A stretch of 42,151 nt of DNA, taken from positions 1-42,151 of the forward strand of contig JAJRVD010000022.1 in NCBI GenBank assembly GCA_024277375.1, read 5' to 3'. This DNA comes from Candidatus Omnitrophota bacterium (GTDB lineage Bacteria; Omnitrophota; Gorgyraeia; Tantalellales; Tantalellaceae). Below, one piece after another: positions 8,682 through 42,151 of this stretch; within the stretch, counting starts at the first letter, position 1; the number at the start of each line of letters is the position of its first letter. The notes beneath the pieces are model-generated. The model saw only the letters and a list, made by a program, of their open reading frames with translations, was not told the origin of the DNA and did no database searches. Both the position numbers and the translations under genes were made by a program.

Positions 8682-9713
8682 ATGAGACCAAAAGTATTAA
8701 AAATAGATCCACAAAAAATTGATCTTGAACTAATAAAGCAGGCCGCGGAAGTGATAAGCAACCGCGGCCTTGTCGCTTTTCCTACAGAGACCGTGTATGG
8801 TTTGGGCGCCAACGCGCTTGAGGCTAAAGCCGTAGCAGGTATTTTTGAGGCAAAAAGCCGCCCACTTGATGACCCGTTAATAGTGCATATTGCCGCTAGA
8901 GAAGATCTTTATGAGCTTGCCAGTTGTGTTCCCGGAGCGGCGGAAAAGCTCATAGACCGTTTTTGGCCGGGTCCCTTAACTATAGTATTGAAAAAGAAAA
9001 GTATCATCCCTGATATTGTAACTACGGGGCTCGAGACCGTAGCTATACGGATGCCGTATAATCCGGTCGCACAAAAATTTATTGCTACCTCAGGGGTTCC
9101 GATCGCGGCACCATCGGCAAATTTATTTGGTCGTCCTTCACCAACAAACGCGAATCATGTTATTAATGATCTTGAAGGAAAGATCGATCTGGTCCTCGAT
9201 GGTGGTCACGCGGATATCGGGGTTGAGTCTACGGTTGTAGAATTTGTCCGCGACAAAATTATTGTTCTTCGTCCGGGAGGAACAACGGTAGAAGACTTGC
9301 GTTCGATCGTTGGTGAAGTGGAAGTATTTACCGAAACGGGCCATTGGCAAAGATCTCCCGGAAGATATCCGCAGCATTATTCGCCTAAGGCTAAAGTAAA
9401 ACTTGTCAGCGATGATCCGGACCAGGTCGAGAGGGTTTTAGCGCTGGCACGGCAAGAGCAGAAGGGAGGCCGCCGCGTTGGTATAATGGCGACAGGCGAA
9501 CATGAGGTGTCATATCGAGAGTTTGATGTTAAAGTTCTCGGGCCCCGAGAGGATGCCCGTCTTTGCGCGTCACGTCTATTCCATATATTGAGAGAGTTTG
9601 ATGAAGATGAAGTCGATGTAATAGTAGCCGAAGCCATCGGAGAGCAGGGCCTCGGCCTTGCCGTAATGAACCGCCTCAGAAAATCCGCGGGACCTGATTT
9701 TCACATCTTTTGA
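8682..9713 (+). CDS. Threonylcarbamoyl-AMP synthase, Sua5/YrdC family
   Basis: Makes threonylcarbamoyl-adenylate from threonine, bicarbonate and ATP, the first step of t6A modification of ANN-decoding tRNAs. The 343 residues comprise a YrdC domain (about 10-210; FPTETVYGLGANA near 34, DDPLIVHIA near 64, PIAAPSANLFGRPSPT near 140) and a C-terminal Sua5 domain (about 225-343) joined by the SPGRYPQHYSPKAKV linker. This two-domain layout is that of Sua5/YwlC rather than the short TsaC. The start at 8682 gives the expected N terminus although no strong ribosome binding site is visible. The hydrogenase gene set at 33631 lacks the YrdC domain of HypF, but nothing in this protein's sequence suggests that it substitutes. 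Confidence 0.93.
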   Translation: MRPKVLKIDPQKIDLELIKQAAEVISNRGLVAFPTETVYGLGANALEAKAVAGIFEAKSRPLDDPLIVHIAAREDLYELASCVPGAAEKLIDRFWPGPLTIVLKKKSIIPDIVTTGLETVAIRMPYNPVAQKFIATSGVPIAAPSANLFGRPSPTNANHVINDLEGKIDLVLDGGHADIGVESTVVEFVRDKIIVLRPGGTTVEDLRSIVGEVEVFTETGHWQRSPGRYPQHYSPKAKVKLVSDDPDQVERVLALARQEQKGGRRVGIMATGEHEVSYREFDVKVLGPREDARLCASRLFHILREFDEDEVDVIVAEAIGEQGLGLAVMNRLRKSAGPDFHIF

Positions 9714-32989: not shown

Positions 32990-33634
32990 ATGACTAAAAA
33001 GAAGATATCAGAAAGTACTATTTCACGCCTTTTCATATATTTAAGGGAGCTTACCGAACTTGCCGAACTCAAAATACGGACTATCTCGTCCGCCGAGTTG
33101 GGCGAGAGGGCGAATATAAGTGATGTTCACATCCGAAAGGACTTGGGGCATTTTGGTAATTTTGGTGTAAGTGGCGCGGGATATTCGGTAGAAGAGCTTA
33201 AGAAGGCCTTGGAGGTCATATTGGGTAAAGACAAGGTCTGGAATGTAGCCATAGCGGGTGTAGGGCACCTGGGGTCGGCTTTACTTGCTTATACCAGGTT
33301 CAGTCAGCATGGTCTTAACATATCAGCGGCGTTTGATGTGGATATAAGAAAGATCGGCAAGCAGCTTGAAGGTATAACCGTACAATCTATCGAAGAAATT
33401 CCTCAGACGGCTCGTGATAAGAATATTTTGATGGGTGTAATAACCGTCCCGGCCGCTGAAGCACGGGGAGTAGCGGATGTTATGGTGCGATCGGGTATCG
33501 AATGCATACTTAATTTTGCGCCGGTAAGTCTAAGTGTGCCTAAACACGTAAAGGTTCGAGACGTTTATCTTTCAAGAGAACTTGAGATGCTTTCATATTT
33601 TTTAGCTAATAAAAATGGTAATGGAACAGAATGA
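32990..33634 (+). CDS. rex: Redox-sensing transcriptional repressor Rex
   Basis: About 214 residues. An N-terminal winged helix with ISESTISRLFIYLRELTEL and RANISDVHIRKDLGHFGNFG (recognition helix) is followed by a Rossmann domain with VAIAGVGHLGSALLAYTRF near 88 that binds NADH/NAD+, and SGIECILNFAPVSL near 170. Rex represses fermentation and hydrogenase genes when NADH/NAD+ is low. ATG 32990 is preceded by TGGAGAA and gives the family N terminus; the open frame upstream to 32909 overlaps the promoter. The stop overlaps the hypF-like start (ATGA), putting it in one transcript with the maturation genes, which strongly suggests hydrogenase control. Confidence 0.94.
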   Translation: MTKKKISESTISRLFIYLRELTELAELKIRTISSAELGERANISDVHIRKDLGHFGNFGVSGAGYSVEELKKALEVILGKDKVWNVAIAGVGHLGSALLAYTRFSQHGLNISAAFDVDIRKIGKQLEGITVQSIEEIPQTARDKNILMGVITVPAAEARGVADVMVRSGIECILNFAPVSLSVPKHVKVRDVYLSRELEMLSYFLANKNGNGTE

Positions 33635-34713
33635 AAAACATTATAGCTCTCGGGGCTGAAAACAAAACATCCTTTTCTGTCATCTCTGAAGAAGATATAT
33701 ATGTGTCCTCTCCGTCGGGAGACCTTAACGATATGGACAATTTTGACGGTTTTGAGATGGGTCTCAAAGATTATATGGATAAAAAAACACTTATACCTGA
33801 TTGCGTGGCTTGTGATCTTCATCCCGATTATCGTTCAACTCGTCTTGCCGAAGAAATAAAAGATAATAACGCGGCCTCGATTCTGGTGAGAGTCCAGCAT
33901 CATTTCGCCCATGTAGCCGCGTGTATGCTGGACAATGATCTTGATGAAGAAGTGATTGGCGTATCTTTTGACGGAACGGGCTTTGGCACCGACGGCAAAA
34001 GCTTGGGCAGCGAATTTATGGTTTGTACGCGTAAAGATTTTACTCGAAAGTTTCACTTGAAATACATGCCACAGCCGGGTGCCGACGTGGCCGCGCGCGA
34101 ACCCTGGCGGATGGCAGTCGCATATCTCTATGATGCTTATGGAGAGAAACTAAAAGATATTGGCTTGCCGTTACTTAAAAGGATCCCCAATTCTACAGCT
34201 TTGATAATAAATGATATGATCAAAAAAGATATAAATTGTCCTTTGACTTCAAGCATGGGGAGGCTATTTGACGCGGTAAGTTCTTTGGTCGGGGTTTGTG
34301 ACGTAGCTACTTTTGAGGCCGAGGGTGCGATAGGCCTTGAGGAAATAGTAGTGCGGGGCATTGGTGAAGTTTATAAGTATGATGTAACGAACGATGAAAT
34401 AGATGTTGCCGAGATGATAAAAGAAATAAACGGAGATGTTGTTCGAGGGATAGATAGCGGGATCATAAGCGCCAAATTTCATAATACTATCGGAGAGATT
34501 ATCTTTGATGTTGTCGAACGTATACATAACGCGACCGGCCTTAAAAAAGCATTAATATCGGGCGGATGTTTTCAAAATAAATATCTTGTGAATTATGTAG
34601 AAGAAAAGTTCGCAGGCGCGAAAATAAAATTGTATAAACACAATAAATATTCACCGACAGATCTGGGTATATCAGTGGGCCAGGCTGTAGTGGCGGCGAG
34701 CTTAAATAGGTGA
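33631..34713 (+). CDS. hypF: HypF-type carbamoyltransferase, C-terminal half only
   Basis: 360 residues covering just the Kae1-like carbamoyltransferase domain. Start IIALGAENKTSFSVIS matches the point where that domain begins inside the usual ~750-residue HypF. Metal-site His residues are in RVQHHFAHVAAC near 87-98; FDGTGFGTDGKSLGSEFM near 112, SSMGRLFDAVSSLVGV near 208 and LISGGCFQNKYLV near 307 are typical. The acylphosphatase, zinc-finger and YrdC domains, which make the carbamoyl-adenylate, are absent and not found nearby. The open reading frame is intact with normal start and stop and an ATGA overlap with rex, so this looks like a stable split rather than decay. It should pass the carbamoyl group to the HypE C-terminal Cys. 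Confidence 0.85.
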   Translation: MKNIIALGAENKTSFSVISEEDIYVSSPSGDLNDMDNFDGFEMGLKDYMDKKTLIPDCVACDLHPDYRSTRLAEEIKDNNAASILVRVQHHFAHVAACMLDNDLDEEVIGVSFDGTGFGTDGKSLGSEFMVCTRKDFTRKFHLKYMPQPGADVAAREPWRMAVAYLYDAYGEKLKDIGLPLLKRIPNSTALIINDMIKKDINCPLTSSMGRLFDAVSSLVGVCDVATFEAEGAIGLEEIVVRGIGEVYKYDVTNDEIDVAEMIKEINGDVVRGIDSGIISAKFHNTIGEIIFDVVERIHNATGLKKALISGGCFQNKYLVNYVEEKFAGAKIKLYKHNKYSPTDLGISVGQAVVAASLNR

Positions 34714-35022: not shown

Positions 35023-35241
35023 ATGTGCTGGAGTGTGCCGGGCAAAATAATAGATATCGAGGGCAATATCGCGACGGTGGAGCACTCGGGCGTACAACGG
35101 AAAGTGCCGCTGGATCTCATAACGGATCCGGCGATCGGTGAATATGTGCTTGTTCATGCCGGATATGCTATACAGAAAGTATCGGAAGAAAAAGCAAAGT
35201 TCACGATAGATTTTTTTAAGACGAGGGGCAAGAATGCTTAA
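35023..35241 (+). CDS. hypC: Hydrogenase maturation chaperone HypC
   Basis: 72 residues starting MCWSVPGKIIDIEGNIATV: the initiator Met followed by Cys2 is the invariant iron-carrier residue, and the PGKI motif is diagnostic. It forms the HypCD complex that assembles Fe(CN)2CO. AAAGGAG lies 6 nt before ATG 35023. The frame is open upstream to 34972, which would bury the essential N-terminal Cys, so that start is rejected. It overlaps hypD by 8 bp. Confidence 0.95.
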   Translation: MCWSVPGKIIDIEGNIATVEHSGVQRKVPLDLITDPAIGEYVLVHAGYAIQKVSEEKAKFTIDFFKTRGKNA

Positions 35242-36322
35242 ATATCTGGATGAATATAGAGACGCACCCCTTGCCTTGGAAATAGCGGAAGCCATAAGGG
35301 GACTCTCAACCAAGCCGTTTAACATTATGGAGGTTTGTGGTGGTCACACTATGGCCATACGGAAGAACGGTATACAAAAAATAGTAGGCGAGAATATAAA
35401 TTTAATCTCAGGGCCCGGCTGTCCGGTATGCGTGACTTCTAAAGTAGATATAGATAAGGCGATAGCGATTTCTCAAATAGAGGATGTTGCCCTGTGCACA
35501 TTCGGGGACATGATATATGTCCCGGGAACAAAAATGTCACTTTCGGAAGCAAAAGCACGGGGACGTGACATAAGAACGGTTTATTCCGTATATGATGCCA
35601 TTGGTTTCGCGAAAAAAGAGAAAGAAAAGAAAATAATTTTCATAAGCATAGGGTTTGAGACTACAACGCCGACAGTATCCGCAGCGGTAAAACAGTGTGC
35701 TCGTGAGGGTATCAGCAATTTTGGTATACTTACGTTAAATAAAACTATGCCGGCGGCGCTCCGGGAGGTTCTCTCGGAAGAGGAATCAAAGATAGACGCT
35801 CTTTTGTGTCCCGGACATGTAAGCACGATAACGGGTACCGGTATGTACAACTTTATTGTCGATGAACTTGGTGTGTCATGCTGTATCTCAGGGTTCGAGC
35901 CGGTTGATATGTTGAAAGCGATATATATTTTGACTGAAGGGCACGAGGTGGGAGAGAAGAAGCTTGCCAACGCGTATGAAAGAGCGGTTAAGGCTGAAGG
36001 TAATAAAAAAGCCAGGGCTATGATGGAAGAAGTTTTCAGGGCCGCGTCCGTCGAATGGCGTGGGTTCGGTGTAATACCAGGTAGCGGACTCGAGCTAAAA
36101 GATGATTACGCTAAATTTGATGCCGGGAAGATATTTGATATAGATGTACCGCCGGCAGAAGAGACTGATAGATGTATGTGCGGCGATATATTGAGGGGTA
36201 AACTAAAACCGATAGATTGTAAGTTGTTTAAGACGGCGTGTACGCCGGAGGATCCGCAAGGCGCGTGCATGGTCTCGAGTGAAGGGACCTGCGCCGCGTG
36301 GTACAAATATGGTGAATTATGA
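35234..36322 (+). CDS. hypD: Hydrogenase maturation protein HypD
   Basis: 362 residues, full length. Cys-rich signatures are present: EVCGGHTMAIRKNGI near 33, SGPGCPVCVTSKVDIDKAIA near 59, and near the C terminus RCMCGDILRGKLKPIDCKLF followed by CTPEDPQGACMVSSEGTCAA with the 4Fe-4S ligands. The scaffold on which CN and CO are attached to iron, working with HypC and HypE. It overlaps hypC upstream and hypE downstream (ATGA), so translation is coupled. Confidence 0.96.
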   Translation: MLKYLDEYRDAPLALEIAEAIRGLSTKPFNIMEVCGGHTMAIRKNGIQKIVGENINLISGPGCPVCVTSKVDIDKAIAISQIEDVALCTFGDMIYVPGTKMSLSEAKARGRDIRTVYSVYDAIGFAKKEKEKKIIFISIGFETTTPTVSAAVKQCAREGISNFGILTLNKTMPAALREVLSEEESKIDALLCPGHVSTITGTGMYNFIVDELGVSCCISGFEPVDMLKAIYILTEGHEVGEKKLANAYERAVKAEGNKKARAMMEEVFRAASVEWRGFGVIPGSGLELKDDYAKFDAGKIFDIDVPPAEETDRCMCGDILRGKLKPIDCKLFKTACTPEDPQGACMVSSEGTCAAWYKYGEL

Positions 36323-37320
36323 ATAGTAAAGTTACGATCGCGCATGGTTCCGGGGGTAAGATGACGCGTGCTCTGATAAAAGACGTGTTTTTCAAATATC
36401 TTGGTAACGATATATTGGACAGGTGTGACGATTCGGCTGTTATTGAGATAGATAAGGGTAGGATCGCGGTTACAACTGATTCATTTGTAGTAAAACCCAT
36501 CTTTTTCCCGGGTGGGGATATCGGGAAACTTGCCATTTGCGGAACGGTTAACGATCTTGCGGTATCAGGGGCCGAACCAAAGTATATTACGTGCGGGTTC
36601 ATTATAGAAGAAGGATTTCCGGTAACGGATCTTGAGGTAATAGTTCGATCGATGGCCAAATGGGCATGTGAGGCAAACGTGAAGATAGTAGCGGGAGATA
36701 CCAAAGTTGTCGAGATCGGGGAGGCGGATGGCATTTTCATTAATACTTCCGGAGTGGGTATTTTAAAACATGACCGTGAGTTAGGGGTGGATAAAATATC
36801 CTCCGGCGATAAAATAATAGTGTCGGGGACTATTGGAGACCATGCTATCGCGATTTTAAGTAAGCGAAAGGGGCTCCGGTTCGAAAGCACCATTGAAAGC
36901 GATTGCGCGCCGTTAAACAAGATGCTGACCGAAGTTATTGAATCAGGCGCGGAAGTCAAATTTATGCGTGACGTTACCCGAGGAGGATTGGCTACTACGT
37001 TAAACGAGGTTGCTGAAGATGTTGGTATTCTTATAAATGAAGAAAGTCTTCCGGTTTCGGAACCGGTCAGAGGCGCGACGGAACTTTTGGGTTTGGATCC
37101 TGTGTATTTGGCAAACGAAGGGAAAGTCATTATACTAGTAAAAGCGTCCGATGAGGCAAAGGTTCTCCAGATTTTAAAAAATAATGAATATGGCGCCAAA
37201 GCTGAGACCATCGGTGAAGTTACAGAAGAGAACGTCGGCAAGGTTTGCTTGAAAACCATCCTTGGTGTAACAAGGATTATAGATATGCCGACGGCAGAAC
37301 ACCTGCCGAGGATATGTTAA
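36319..37320 (+). CDS. hypE: Hydrogenase maturation protein HypE
   Basis: 333 residues of the AIR synthase-like fold. The N terminus carries AHGSGGKMTRALIKDVFF and the DDSAVIEI/AVTTDSFVV pair for ATP binding. The protein ends PTAEHLPRIC: the C-terminal Cys is the residue that receives the carbamoyl group and is dehydrated to thiocyanate. FMRDVTRGGLATTLNEVAED near 214 is typical. Its substrate carbamoyl comes from the HypF-type transferase at 33631. It overlaps hypD by 4 bp; hypA follows 49 nt after the stop. Confidence 0.96.
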   Translation: MNSKVTIAHGSGGKMTRALIKDVFFKYLGNDILDRCDDSAVIEIDKGRIAVTTDSFVVKPIFFPGGDIGKLAICGTVNDLAVSGAEPKYITCGFIIEEGFPVTDLEVIVRSMAKWACEANVKIVAGDTKVVEIGEADGIFINTSGVGILKHDRELGVDKISSGDKIIVSGTIGDHAIAILSKRKGLRFESTIESDCAPLNKMLTEVIESGAEVKFMRDVTRGGLATTLNEVAEDVGILINEESLPVSEPVRGATELLGLDPVYLANEGKVIILVKASDEAKVLQILKNNEYGAKAETIGEVTEENVGKVCLKTILGVTRIIDMPTAEHLPRIC

Positions 37321-37369: not shown

Positions 37370-37609
37370 ATGCATGAGATTAAACTTACTCAAAACCTTG
37401 TATCCATACTTGACAGAGAAGTTGCCTCGGACGAAATAGGTATGGTCAAGGTCGTACATCTCGAGGTAGGCAAGCTCCGGTATATCGTGCCGGAGATAAT
37501 GCAGACCGCGTTCAGGCATGTGCCCAAACATGAAAAACTCACCGAGGCGAAATTGGAAATAGAGGTAATAACGGGCGGGGAGTTCACGCTCAAAGGAATA
37601 GAGTGGTAA
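37370..37609 (+). CDS. hypA: HypA-like nickel-insertion protein lacking the zinc finger
   Basis: 79 residues against about 113 in standard HypA. The nickel site MHE at the N terminus and the helix/strand core (VKVVHLEVGKLRYIVPEIMQ, then KLEIEVITGGEFTLKGIEW) are clear. The zinc domain with its two CxxC pairs, which normally lies before the last strand, is absent and there is not one Cys in the protein. The flanks join smoothly (LEIEV directly to the GGEF strand), so the gap looks like a clean domain deletion. The stop comes 1 nt before the hypB ATG. How nickel release is regulated without zinc is open. Confidence 0.8.
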   Translation: MHEIKLTQNLVSILDREVASDEIGMVKVVHLEVGKLRYIVPEIMQTAFRHVPKHEKLTEAKLEIEVITGGEFTLKGIEW

Positions 37610-37610
37610 T

Positions 37611-38276
37611 ATGGCGTTCAAAGTAATAAAAGAGGACATATTAAGCGAGAATGATGGTGTGGCAAGTGAAGTGCGTGCTTCTTTAGCGCAAGAGAAGACA
37701 TTTATGATAAACCTGATATCTTCTCCCGGTGCAGGTAAGACATCTTTTCTGGAAGTGATAGGACCGAAGCTAAAAGAGGAAGGTATATCATTCGTAATTG
37801 TAACAGGAGATTGTTTTACATCACGTGACGCGGAACGTTTAGACGCGCTGGATCTTCCGGTAGTTCAGATAAATACCGGTAATGCCTGCCACATAGACGC
37901 GCAGCTTGTTGCAAGCGCGTTGGAAGATGTCGATCTGGAAGGTATGGATCTCGTTATAGTGGAGAACGTAGGCAATCTTGTATGCCCGGCGGAGTTTGAT
38001 GTGGGCGAAGACGTGAAAATAGCTATATTAAGTACAACCGAGGGGGATGACAAGCCTATAAAGTATCCGCTTTTGATACTCGAAAGTGCGCTCGCGATAA
38101 TCAATAAGACGGATCTATTGGAATACGTGGATTATGATATGGATTTTAGTGTTGAAAATATACGCAAGATCAATCAGACAATTAAAGTTATAAAGACTTC
38201 GTGCAAGACCGGCGAAGGAATAGACGCGTTTTTGAGCTGGATAAAGGACAAAATCAAAATAAAGAAAATAACGTAG
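37611..38276 (+). CDS. hypB: Hydrogenase maturation GTPase HypB
   Basis: 221 residues. The P-loop ISSPGAGKTS ends near residue 45. The metal-binding pair Cys93-His94 is in GNACHIDAQL, followed by IVENVGNLVCPAEFDVGED and INKTDLLEYVD for guanine recognition. It lacks the N-terminal CxxCGC nickel motif and His-rich stretch of some homologues. It delivers Ni to the hydrogenase large subunit with HypA. Its stop codon TAG lies in the first bases of the 59-bp GTAGGAG repeat (38273-38331), so a repeat has set its 3' end. Confidence 0.94.
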   Translation: MAFKVIKEDILSENDGVASEVRASLAQEKTFMINLISSPGAGKTSFLEVIGPKLKEEGISFVIVTGDCFTSRDAERLDALDLPVVQINTGNACHIDAQLVASALEDVDLEGMDLVIVENVGNLVCPAEFDVGEDVKIAILSTTEGDDKPIKYPLLILESALAIINKTDLLEYVDYDMDFSVENIRKINQTIKVIKTSCKTGEGIDAFLSWIKDKIKIKKIT

Positions 38277-38568: not shown

Positions 38569-39609
38569 ATGAGACATTATTATCTGGAAAAAACCTCTAT
38601 GGGTAAATTTATTGAATCGCTTAAGGAGGGGTACAGGGTAGTCGCGCCTATAAAAAAAGAGAATCAATTTGTATTCGCGAAAGTTGAGTCTGCCGGTGAA
38701 GTTGAACTGGAATATCTCCCGACAGTTCTCCCTCCCAAAAAATATCTTTTTCCTCAAAAAGAAAAATTGGGAACTTTCGATATGGGTGATACTAAACTGA
38801 CGGATACATCAGTGGAAGTGGAACCGATGATAATATTCGCGGCACATACATGTGATATCGAGGGCTTGGAATGCCTGGATGTGGTATTTAACAGCGATCC
38901 GGCGGATCCGTATTACAAGGCCAGAAAAAAGTCTCTTCTTATTATCGGATTTGAATGTATGGTTCCGTGTGATGAGTACGCTACCTGCCGGACGATGGAT
39001 ACACATAACCCGAAGGCGGGGTATGACGTAATGATAACTGATGTGGGAAGTAAATATGTCCTGCATGTAAATTCTAAAGAAGGGAAAGATCTTTTGGAGG
39101 GCAATTCGGCGCTTCTTGACGCCGGGAACGGAGAGGCTAAAACGCTTCTTGCTAAAACACGTGAAGAAAAACTTAAGAGATTTGACAACAAACTTAAACC
39201 CGAATTTTCTCGATTGGCTCGTCTTTTTGGAGATTCATACACAAGCCCGGTGTGGGATGAAGTCGGCGAAAAATGTCTTTCTTGCGGTAACTGTACGGCG
39301 GTGTGTCCTACATGCTACTGTTTAGATATGTATGATAAGGTTAAGCTGGATACTACAGGCGGCGAAAGAAAAAGGGTATGGGATTCATGCCAGTTAGAAG
39401 AGTTTGCCAGTGTCGCGGGCGGTGAAAATTTTCGTGAAGAAAGATCCAGCCGTCAAAGACACAGGTATTACCGTAAATTTGATTATTCGGTAAAAAAATA
39501 TCATAAATTTTTTTGTACCGGTTGCGGCAGGTGTTCGCGTACGTGTATGGCCGGAATAAGTCTTATAGAAACAGTAAATAGTTTAGATGAGGAGAATGAA
39601 AATGTGTAA
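38569..39609 (+). CDS. hydB: NiFe hydrogenase (sulfhydrogenase-type) beta subunit, iron-sulfur protein
   Basis: 346 residues of the HydB/AsrA-like ferredoxin type. Two 4Fe-4S binding sites lie in the C-terminal third: CLSCGNCTAVCPTCYC near 237 and CTGCGRCSRTCMAG near 316. The N-terminal part includes HTCDIEGLECLD near 89 and GFECMVPCDEYATC near 126. It should pass electrons between the gamma subunit's flavin and the hydrogenase core. AAGGAG precedes the ATG. Gene order beta-gamma-delta-alpha equals hydBGDA of Pyrococcus sulfhydrogenase (group 3b). Confidence 0.9.
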   Translation: MRHYYLEKTSMGKFIESLKEGYRVVAPIKKENQFVFAKVESAGEVELEYLPTVLPPKKYLFPQKEKLGTFDMGDTKLTDTSVEVEPMIIFAAHTCDIEGLECLDVVFNSDPADPYYKARKKSLLIIGFECMVPCDEYATCRTMDTHNPKAGYDVMITDVGSKYVLHVNSKEGKDLLEGNSALLDAGNGEAKTLLAKTREEKLKRFDNKLKPEFSRLARLFGDSYTSPVWDEVGEKCLSCGNCTAVCPTCYCLDMYDKVKLDTTGGERKRVWDSCQLEEFASVAGGENFREERSSRQRHRYYRKFDYSVKKYHKFFCTGCGRCSRTCMAGISLIETVNSLDEENENV

Positions 39610-40459
39610 TTGTGATAAAAACAAAGTTGTTGAAGTGGATGCGTTGTATTACCCGATGGAAGGCACGATCGTAAAGGTGGAGCAGATGACCGAATACGAG
39701 AAGTTTTTTGAGATCCGGCTCTCCGACGGTAAAGAGTTGGGTAATATGCCGGGACAGTTCGTGCAGCTTTCAATGTTCGGTATAGGGGAGGCACCCATCT
39801 CGGTTTCGTCATCGCCGACAAAAGAAGATAAAACTACTTTTGAAATATGTGTGAGAAAGGTCGGTACGTTCACCAACGCTCTTCACGCGTTGGGCGTCGG
39901 AGATAAGATCGGAGTAAGAGGTCCTTTTGGCCGGGGTTTCCCGGTTGATGAACTTAAAGGTAACGATCTTCTTTTTATTGCCGGCGGCCTGGGTATAGTT
40001 CCTCTTCGGTCGCTTATAAGATTTGTTATGGATAAGCGCCGCGACTTCGGTAAAGTTGATATTCTTCTCGGGTGTAAAGAACCGAAGGATAGACTTTTCT
40101 CTAATGAAATAGAAGAGTGGGCACGTCTGGCTGATACAAATTATACTTGTACCGTAGACAAAAGCGACCCGGAATGGAAGGGTAATGTGGGGGTTATCAC
40201 AACTCTTATCCCGGGGGTAGATATAGATGTTAACCGTACATATGCTGTTATTGTAGGTCCGCCGATCATGTACAAGTTTACGATAATGAGTTTGATGGAT
40301 AAGGGTCTTCCTAAAGACAGGATAATAATGTTACTGGAAAGACGCATGAAATGCGGGCTTGGTAAATGCGGGCATTGTCAGATAAACCATAAATATGTAT
40401 GTCAGGATGGGCCGACATTCAGGCTGGATGAGCTAACGGGAATGGGGGAAGCATTATGA
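39602..40459 (+). CDS. hydG: NiFe hydrogenase gamma subunit, FAD/NAD(P)-binding diaphorase
   Basis: 285 residues of the ferredoxin-NADP reductase fold. The FAD site is QFVQLSMFGIGEAPISVSSS near 51-70, the nucleotide site LLFIAGGLGIVPLRSLIRFV near 122-141, and a C-terminal 2Fe-2S cluster lies in CGLGKCGHCQ and VCQDGP near 250-270. It exchanges electrons with NAD(P)H. ATG 39602 is preceded by GAGGAG at 7 nt and overlaps the hydB stop; an earlier in-frame ATG at 39587 would cover that site. Its end overlaps hydD by 4 bp. Confidence 0.92.
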   Translation: MCNCDKNKVVEVDALYYPMEGTIVKVEQMTEYEKFFEIRLSDGKELGNMPGQFVQLSMFGIGEAPISVSSSPTKEDKTTFEICVRKVGTFTNALHALGVGDKIGVRGPFGRGFPVDELKGNDLLFIAGGLGIVPLRSLIRFVMDKRRDFGKVDILLGCKEPKDRLFSNEIEEWARLADTNYTCTVDKSDPEWKGNVGVITTLIPGVDIDVNRTYAVIVGPPIMYKFTIMSLMDKGLPKDRIIMLLERRMKCGLGKCGHCQINHKYVCQDGPTFRLDELTGMGEAL

Positions 40460-41226
40460 GTAAAAATAAAAAGAAAAAAGAAAAGGTACGTATAGCGTTT
40501 TTTGATTTTGCCGACTGTGAAGGATGTCAGCTTCAGGTGACCTACCTTAATGAAGCTTTTCTCGGTGTGCTTGAGCATTGCGATATTGTAAACTTCCGCG
40601 AGGCTATATCTGAGCGTAGCGATGATTATGATATAGCGTTCGTTGAAGGCTCAATAACACGTGAGCATGACGCGGAACGCTTAAAAGAGATACGTAAGAA
40701 CGCGAAGATACTTATCGCTTATGGCGCGTGCGCGTGTATCGGGGGTATTAACGGTCTTAGAAAAAAGTATACCGCGGATGAGGCGATAAACATAGTTTAT
40801 GCTGGACGCAAAGATCCTATTGAAGCAGGCGAACCGAAACCGGTCCATGATGTGGTCAAGGTAGATCACTATATACACGGATGCCCGACAAGTAATGACG
40901 AATTGGTAGAGGCGCTTAAAGGGATACTTTTGGGCAAAGGGTATACCCCTCCTGATTATGCCGTATGTGTTGAATGTAAACTTAAAGAAAACGTCTGTTT
41001 GTTCGAGAAGGGTCAGGTATGTATGGGGCCGGTAACGCGGGCCGGATGTAACTCGTGGTGCCCGAGTTGGGGTAACACCTGTTATGGATGTCGCGGACTT
41101 CTTCCTAACCCGGCAAAAGAAGGGCAGATGGACGTTTTAGAGAAGAACGGATATACGATAAACGAGTTGGAACAAAAATTTGATCTGTATAACGCATGCA
41201 AATTGGAGGCAGATAAAAATGAGTAA
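40456..41226 (+). CDS. hydD: NiFe hydrogenase delta (small) subunit
   Basis: 256 residues. The proximal cluster begins with Cys21 and Cys24 in DFADCEGCQLQV; YGACACIGGI near 90 and HGCPTSNDELVEAL near 142 give further ligands. The end carries two more clusters: VCVECKLKENVC and CMGPVTRAGCNSWCPSW then CYGCRG. It has no twin-arginine signal, so the enzyme is cytoplasmic. It relays electrons from the NiFe site to the beta and gamma subunits. It overlaps hydA by 8 bp (ATGAGTAA). Confidence 0.93.
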   Translation: MSKNKKKKEKVRIAFFDFADCEGCQLQVTYLNEAFLGVLEHCDIVNFREAISERSDDYDIAFVEGSITREHDAERLKEIRKNAKILIAYGACACIGGINGLRKKYTADEAINIVYAGRKDPIEAGEPKPVHDVVKVDHYIHGCPTSNDELVEALKGILLGKGYTPPDYAVCVECKLKENVCLFEKGQVCMGPVTRAGCNSWCPSWGNTCYGCRGLLPNPAKEGQMDVLEKNGYTINELEQKFDLYNACKLEADKNE

Positions 41227-42151
41227 AAAAGATCTTAATATAAACGTTGAATATCTGACGCGTGTTGAGGGCCACGGGAATATCGTGGTTAACATCAAAG
41301 AAGGCAAACTCGAAAAATGTCAGCTTGAAGTAATTGAAGCGCCGAGATTTTTCGAGGCTATGGTTCGGGGCCGTTCGATGTTCGAGGTCCAGCACATAAC
41401 TTCGCGCATATGCGGTATATGTTCTACCGGTCATTGCATGGCTTCGGTAAAAGCCGCTGAAGATGCCGTGGAGTATGAGGTAAGCGAGCAGACGAAACTT
41501 TTCAGAAAACTCCTGCTTCATTACGAAACGCTGGATAGTCATGTGCTGCACGCGTATTTTCTTGTAGCGCCTGACGCTTTAGGAGCGCCGAGTGTATTGC
41601 CTTTGATCGAGACGCATACGGAAGTGGTGCTTCGCGCGCTCAGGATGAAGAAAGCTTACAGTGACGTATGCGACATTATGGCCGGTCGTCACACGCATCC
41701 TATCAGTCTTTGTCCCAGGGGATGGACAAAACTCCCGACAAAAAAAGAGCTCGAGAAAATGAAAGAGATCTTAGTCGGAACGGTTGAGGATCTTCTTATT
41801 ACGGTTGATACGTTCAAGACTATTAAACTTCCTGAATTTACAAGAGAAACCGAATATGTGGCATTAACTCATCCGGATGAATACGCGTTTTATGAAGGCG
41901 ATTTAACGACTAATGATATTAAAATGGTTGTTAAGCCGCGCGATTATAAAAAAGTAGTTCACGAATATCATGCCGCGCACTCAACCGCTAAACACGCTAA
42001 AAATAAGAGGGATTCATACATGGTAGGAGCACTCGCGCGAACGAATATCAATTTTGATCAGTTGAATGACGAGGCCAAAGGTGTAGCGGATGCTCTCGGA
42101 TACAAAGTTCCGTGTTATAACCCGTATATGAATACTGTCGCGCAGGTCATA
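41219..42151 (+). CDS. hydA: NiFe hydrogenase alpha (large) subunit, partial
   Basis: The first 311 codons; the gene runs off the right edge of the window. The N-terminal NiFe ligand motif RICGICSTGH places Cys65 and Cys68 and His72. TRVEGHGNIVVNIKEGK at residues 14-30 is typical of the family, as is GRHTHPISLCPRGWTKLP later on. The C-terminal DPCxxC motif and its cleavage site lie outside the window, as may a maturation protease gene. GGAGG at 41205 precedes the ATG by 9 nt. Gene order and the diaphorase partner point to group 3b rather than 3c, but a phylogeny is needed. Confidence 0.93.
   Translation, partial: MSKKDLNINVEYLTRVEGHGNIVVNIKEGKLEKCQLEVIEAPRFFEAMVRGRSMFEVQHITSRICGICSTGHCMASVKAAEDAVEYEVSEQTKLFRKLLLHYETLDSHVLHAYFLVAPDALGAPSVLPLIETHTEVVLRALRMKKAYSDVCDIMAGRHTHPISLCPRGWTKLPTKKELEKMKEILVGTVEDLLITVDTFKTIKLPEFTRETEYVALTHPDEYAFYEGDLTTNDIKMVVKPRDYKKVVHEYHAAHSTAKHAKNKRDSYMVGALARTNINFDQLNDEAKGVADALGYKVPCYNPYMNTVAQVI

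Follow-up and report, generated by a model that had tools for sequence, protein, structure and literature searches.

The hyp operon and its single-domain HypF

The 42,151 nucleotides of Omnitrophota DNA analysed here (hereafter the window) make up contig C9 of a draft genome of 2.07 Mb and 95.7% completeness. It carries the gene order rex-hypF-hypC-D-E-A-B, followed by the subunits of a group-3b-type (sulfhydrogenase-type) [NiFe] hydrogenase (Table 1). Model matches for hypC, hypD, hypE and hypB, together with a hypA-like open reading frame, bear out the original prediction of a full HypC/D/E/A/B set.

Table 1. Features of the window discussed in the text, with positions counted from its first nucleotide.
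Feature	Position	Strand	Remarks
Sua5 (YrdC + Sua5_C)	8682..9713	+	sole YrdC protein detected genome-wide; candidate source of carbamoyl-AMP
rex-type redox-sensing repressor	32990..33634	+	ORF from 32909, likely start 32990; 4-base overlap with the hypF start
hypF-short, Kae1-like S-carbamoyltransferase domain only (HypF_C + HypF_C_2)	33631..34713	+	360 aa, ATG start
hypC	35023..35241	+	TIGR00074, 79.9 bits (cut-off 48)
hypD	35234..36322	+	TIGR00075, 442 bits
hypE	36319..37320	+	TIGR02124, 460 bits; C-terminus PRIC (cysteine that is carbamoylated)
hypA-like	37370..37609	+	79 aa, without CxxC zinc motif; L043 homologue matches PF01155
hypB	37611..38276	+	TIGR00073, 244 bits
hydrogenase/sulfhydrogenase beta-type subunit	38569..39609	+	
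hydrogenase/sulfhydrogenase gamma-type subunit (FAD/NAD)	39587..40459	+	
[NiFe] hydrogenase small (delta) subunit	40456..41226	+	
[NiFe] hydrogenase large (alpha) subunit	41180..42151	+	RICGIC motif present; cut by the contig end

Only two Pfam domains were found in the HypF protein, PF17788 HypF_C (residues 2-101, profile positions 4-99) and PF22521 HypF_C_2 (residues 110-351, profile positions 1-241). The NCBIfam model TIGR00143 (hypF) aligns over its positions 391-740 of 741 only and reaches 259 bits, the full-length cut-off being 466 bits. Both alignments agree with the earlier proposal of a HypF made of the carbamoyltransferase domain alone: the Kae1-like domain is complete, the acylphosphatase, zinc-finger (zf-HYPF) and YrdC domains are absent, and the gene stands in an operon with hypC, hypD and a hypE whose product ends in PRIC, in line with the PR(I/V)C pattern. 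Could an N-terminal half be hidden upstream? The hypF start codon shares four bases with the rex stop codon (ATGA, 33631-33634) and the stop-to-stop frame of hypF spans 363 aa, so that no such half is concealed there, which contradicts the frameshift that had been raised as an alternative.

We searched the whole genome in six frames, reading through stops, and found HypF_C once. The Sua5 at 8682 was the single YrdC protein, and there was a single free acylphosphatase, on contig C72, which carries a VQGVGFR motif and a catalytic-type asparagine. No zf-HYPF was found in this search of a genome that is 95.7% complete and may contain masked stretches. A 419-aa HypF N-terminal query, which gives a full match in a positive-control genome, retrieved the free acylphosphatase as its sole match in the window's genome; in 12 other genomes with a short HypF it retrieved an acylphosphatase, once a TsaC protein and once nothing. 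Thus, the genome-wide check that accompanied the original prediction, for a full-length HypF or a separate acylphosphatase-zinc finger-YrdC protein, found neither in this 95.7% complete draft, and the expectation that the missing step comes from another gene or another donor is upheld.

Is the short protein still an enzyme? Its AlphaFold2 model has a pLDDT of 94.4 and finds its best fold match in the HypE-HypF complex 3vti (TM-score 0.92). The same Kae1-like domain, with a TM-score of about 0.9, metal ligands and a hyp operon, is shared with the canonical four-domain HypF of E. coli (3tsp), Caldanaerobacter (3vth/3vti) and Thermococcus (4g9i), whereas the short form lacks the acylphosphatase, zinc-finger and YrdC domains and, by extension, the internal channel in which carbamoyl-AMP is made and passed on. 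The metal ligands H90, H94, D114 and D344 (HxxxH + D + D) are invariant in 30 short HypFs that reach down to 30% identity with the window protein. By motif, they correspond to the ligands H133, H137, D156 and D333 described for GdmN (PMC9633730). Conservation of the metal ligands and glycine motifs is 95% or higher among 35 short as well as among 48 full-length HypFs, and only four positions that are conserved in the full-length proteins relax in the short clade (26, 341, 343 and 345), the last three of which flank the metal ligand D344. With TsaD models the short HypF reaches about 21 bits, far below their cut-offs of 208-296, which by this measure places it outside TsaD/Kae1. It is nearly certain that the window gene keeps the complete Kae1-like fold, every metal ligand and a place in an operon with hypC, hypD and a HypE that can be carbamoylated, and that a single ancestral loss left no cis or split copy of the other domains (see below). 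We predict that it is very probably a genuine, working HypF reduced to its last catalytic domain.

The window's HypA-like protein is one of several of about 80-104 aa from which the two CxxC zinc-binding pairs are missing (37370-37609 in the window; also L043, L048, L054, L061, L076, L078, L080 and L081); other members of the same cluster retain them.

Distribution and origin of the short form

Is the short HypF a common form in Omnitrophota? We analysed a class sample of 147 genomes and a phylum sample of 384, mostly drafts with some stretches masked, in which short and full-length forms were told apart by open-frame length; 30 of the short genes were also aligned over their whole length. HypF_C is encoded in 57 of the 147 class genomes. 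The short form accounts for 49 of these, spanning 17 family-level groups, and zf-HYPF is found in none of the 49; in the remaining eight, all of which have zf-HYPF, HypF is full-length or a full-length form cut by a contig end. Exactly one YrdC protein was detected in 44 of the short-HypF genomes, two in three and none in two, compared with two or three in each of the eight full-length ones. Single-contig short-HypF genomes (G042, G084 and G120) agree in the short form, the lack of zf-HYPF and the YrdC count. In the phylum sample, the short form occurs in about 100 genomes and the full-length form in 37. Among the 80 best-matching named contigs, all short forms not cut by a contig end belong to Omnitrophota, and those from other phyla are all full-length. 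The truncation is an ancestral trait common to much of the class, beyond what a single window could show, and the short form as the sole HypF of a large clade is new; a literature search for HypF in Omnitrophota retrieved no paper.

Of the 49 genomes with a short HypF, 46 have a [NiFe] large-subunit match; both active-site motifs were found in those complete large subunits that were checked. The only general neighbours of short hypF across families are hypC, hypD and hypE, and every recovered HypE encoded beside it ends in PRIC. No conserved neighbour that might replace the lost domains was found around short hypF across families. Genes for a pyruvoyl-dependent arginine decarboxylase and an arginase-family (agmatinase-like) protein, often with an M48 peptidase gene, lie close upstream in L050, L051, L059, L072, L073 and L075; they recur in some families only and were rejected as a conserved replacement. 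Two genomes, G120 and G114, have a short hypF and no [NiFe] large subunit at E 0.001; even so, L060 of G120 has, next to hypF, genes from clusters that also occur in membrane-type hydrogenase operons. Away from hypCDE, G042 has another short HypF-like gene (L053 9086-10051), whose Kae1-like domain is missing about 55 residues from its middle; second HypF_C copies are also present in G071, G094 and G114.

A single branch (bootstrap/SH-aLRT 93/99) of the maximum-likelihood tree built from 83 Kae1 domains has every one of the 35 short Omnitrophota HypFs on the same side. A second tree, which includes the HypFs of E. coli, Caldanaerobacter and Thermococcus, recovers the short clade at 100/100 and, when rooted on the one archaeal HypF, nests it among full-length HypFs with moderate backbone support, which disfavours the short form as the ancestral state. 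Given a single short clade nested in this way, the simplest reading is one ancestral loss in the class of the half that makes carbamoyl-AMP, tolerated over 17 family-level groups. Five Omnitrophota HypFs in the trees are full-length; they lie scattered, a pattern expected if they were acquired later. Although G012 belongs to the same family as the window's genome, its hypF clusters with those of other families, and the gene may thus have moved between families within the class.

Cupriavidus necator (Ralstonia eutropha) HypF1, a protein of 394 aa encoded on plasmid pHG1 in a hypABFCDE operon, likewise consists of the Kae1-like domain only. C. necator also possesses a more canonical HypF2 (PMC5350229), whereas no further copy of the missing half was found in the Omnitrophota with the short form. 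A 2025 survey lists the N-terminal domains as missing from about 3-4% of the HypFs that it covers (PMC12727194). A shared origin with the Omnitrophota form was considered, as a quick tree joined HypF1 to L139, and was rejected: the long branch of HypF1 was unstable in that tree, the careful trees did not reproduce the grouping, and HypF1 falls outside the 100/100 Omnitrophota clade, indicating a separate truncation.

Possible sources of carbamoyl-AMP for the short HypF

HypF serves as a textbook example of substrate channelling, its intermediates carbamate and carbamoyl-AMP being too labile for release. A presumably anaerobic clade that lacks three of the four HypF domains and shows no second copy is a direct test of this view. 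Moreover, the clade offers a natural HypE carbamoylation system to which each step can be added separately.

In canonical HypF, carbamoyl phosphate is hydrolysed to carbamate, carbamate is adenylated in the YrdC domain, and the carbamoyl group is transferred in the Kae1-like domain; both labile intermediates are channelled inside one protein (PMC6022934). An ancestor of many Omnitrophota families almost certainly lost the acylphosphatase, zinc-finger and YrdC domains in a single event, with no cis or split copy kept. The short HypF very probably performs the last step, carbamoyl transfer to HypE, and has no known means for the first two. It should be able to do so because the Kae1-like domain is where the HypE cysteine meets the nucleotide, at which it points in the known structure (PMC4506123).

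Where could the adenylate come from? Sua5/TsaC is homologous to the YrdC domain missing from the short HypF. In t6A synthesis, it adenylates a carbamate, N-carboxy-threonine. We propose that Sua5/TsaC, the cell's only YrdC protein, would make carbamoyl-AMP in trans by adenylating carbamate, which might arise either from ammonia and bicarbonate or, by way of the free acylphosphatase, from carbamoyl phosphate, and that the carbamoyl-AMP, being labile, would be handed directly to the short HypF. Sua5/TsaC is favoured because nearly all short-HypF genomes have exactly one YrdC protein, and we give this supply route, arrived at by elimination, about an even chance. If it is the source, an essential tRNA-modification enzyme would also feed hydrogen metabolism. 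The division of labour would resemble bacterial t6A synthesis, in which a separate YrdC protein (TsaC/Sua5) makes the adenylate for a Kae1-family protein (TsaD), except that threonylcarbamoyl-AMP is the adenylate made there and a tRNA accepts the group. The O-carbamoyltransferases TobZ, GdmN and NodU, like the short HypF, transfer a carbamoyl group from carbamoyl-AMP in a Kae1-like domain; they differ in having their own YrdC-like domain and small-molecule acceptors.

Several points count against supply by Sua5/TsaC. In the window, sua5 is not adjacent to hypF, canonical HypF keeps both labile intermediates inside one protein (PMC6022934), and C. necator HypF1 is inactive in anaerobically grown E. 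coli lacking hypF, which has TsaC (PMC5350229; PMC9100943). It has been suggested that the truncated HypF1 'likely requires carbamoyl adenylate', possibly available aerobically only (PMC9100943), an explanation that is unlikely to apply to the presumably anaerobic Omnitrophota. A comparison of same-family genomes with and without HypF revealed no Sua5 signature linked to HypF, at low power (4 sequences could be used against 7; 278 of 300 permutations were equally extreme). The original prediction had already remarked that nothing directly links Sua5 to hypF, and the gene positions in the window and this small comparison leave that remark standing. A free acylphosphatase is encoded in 134 of the 147 class genomes, with or without HypF, and being near-universal it was rejected as a specific partner or marker.

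The main rival is a self-sufficient Kae1-like domain, which would bind ATP and make, or bypass, carbamoyl-AMP from carbamoyl phosphate or carbamate with no YrdC partner. Indeed, in GdmN crystals, density for ATP, AMP and carbamoyl-AMP was seen only in the Kae1-like domain, although adenylation is assigned to YrdC-like domains in the same literature (PMC9633730). Three of the four relaxed positions flank D344, which would fit a change of the active-site rim upon loss of the partner domains, and neither a dedicated partner gene nor a Sua5 signature was found; the Kae1 domain as a whole, however, is little changed, and HypF1 failed to replace HypF in E. coli (PMC5350229). On balance, we consider self-sufficiency rather doubtful. 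It is fairly probable, on the other hand, that one of two things holds: the single-domain HypF either activates carbamoyl phosphate itself or draws carbamoyl-AMP from Sua5/TsaC, the labile adenylate being made and delivered without an intramolecular channel.

It is unlikely that carbamoyl-AMP is made by a dedicated partner that is unrecognisable as a YrdC protein or was missed as divergent, masked or unassembled. Detection is imperfect, as the two short-HypF genomes without any detected YrdC protein imply, and some genomes contain masked stretches. Yet the zf-HYPF and YrdC searches recover the N-terminal parts in all eight full-length genomes, with zf-HYPF in 0 of the 49 short ones, and no unknown gene is conserved next to hypF across families.

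A degenerate short HypF, or one in another role, with the hydrogenase cyanide coming from elsewhere, appears very improbable. Another cyanide source is conceivable, since some class members without HypF carry in their [NiFe] operons a HypC-HydE fusion, several with HydG (next section), but the catalytic residues of the short HypF are invariant over 30 proteins down to 30% identity, and its gene stays beside hypCDE with a HypE that keeps PRIC in all recovered cases. Finally, the possibility that the short form is an artefact of assembly or of a frameshift, its N-terminal half lying elsewhere, can practically be dismissed: the window's genome is a draft at 95.7% completeness, but hypF starts within the 4-base rex overlap and 49 genomes of the class, single-contig ones included, have the short form.

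HypC-HydE fusions in relatives without HypF

Several members of the class encode a group-3b-type large subunit, yet no HypF was found in them even with the Kae1 profile. A HypC-HydE fusion lies beside the [NiFe] large subunit in nine HypF-less genomes: G020 (L252), G022 (L255), G056 (L337), G081 (L338), G087 (L250), G107 (L251), G132 (L249), G144 (L254) and G145 (L248). Four fusions were scored against the HydE model and reached 240-275 bits (cut-off 255), the others being assigned by similarity. The adjoining gene is HydG in G132 and G107, the two scored (488-535 bits, cut-off 312), and a gene of HydG size is adjacent to the fusion in G087, G145 and G020. No hypD, hypE or hypF was seen near the fusion operons. 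In G022, nearly all of which was read (72 kb masked, C4:64001-136000), there is no HypD and no HypF, and the HypE-like match is only to a related-fold protein. Apparent absence of HypF is uninformative in G072 and G097, in which the expected hypF region is masked (C1, L247 11002-19001, and C11, L253 1-7001, respectively).

HydG makes CO and cyanide for the [FeFe] hydrogenase, which hints at a different cyanide source in these genomes. As judged from gene content, the HypC-HydE/HydG operons possibly provide an [FeFe]-type radical-SAM source of CN and CO for a [NiFe] enzyme. We found no paper on a HypC-HydE fusion in [NiFe] operons. In G132 (L249 4194-6026), the [NiFe] large subunit is itself fused in frame with a maturation protease (NiFeSe_Hases + HycI), giving a protein of 610 aa.
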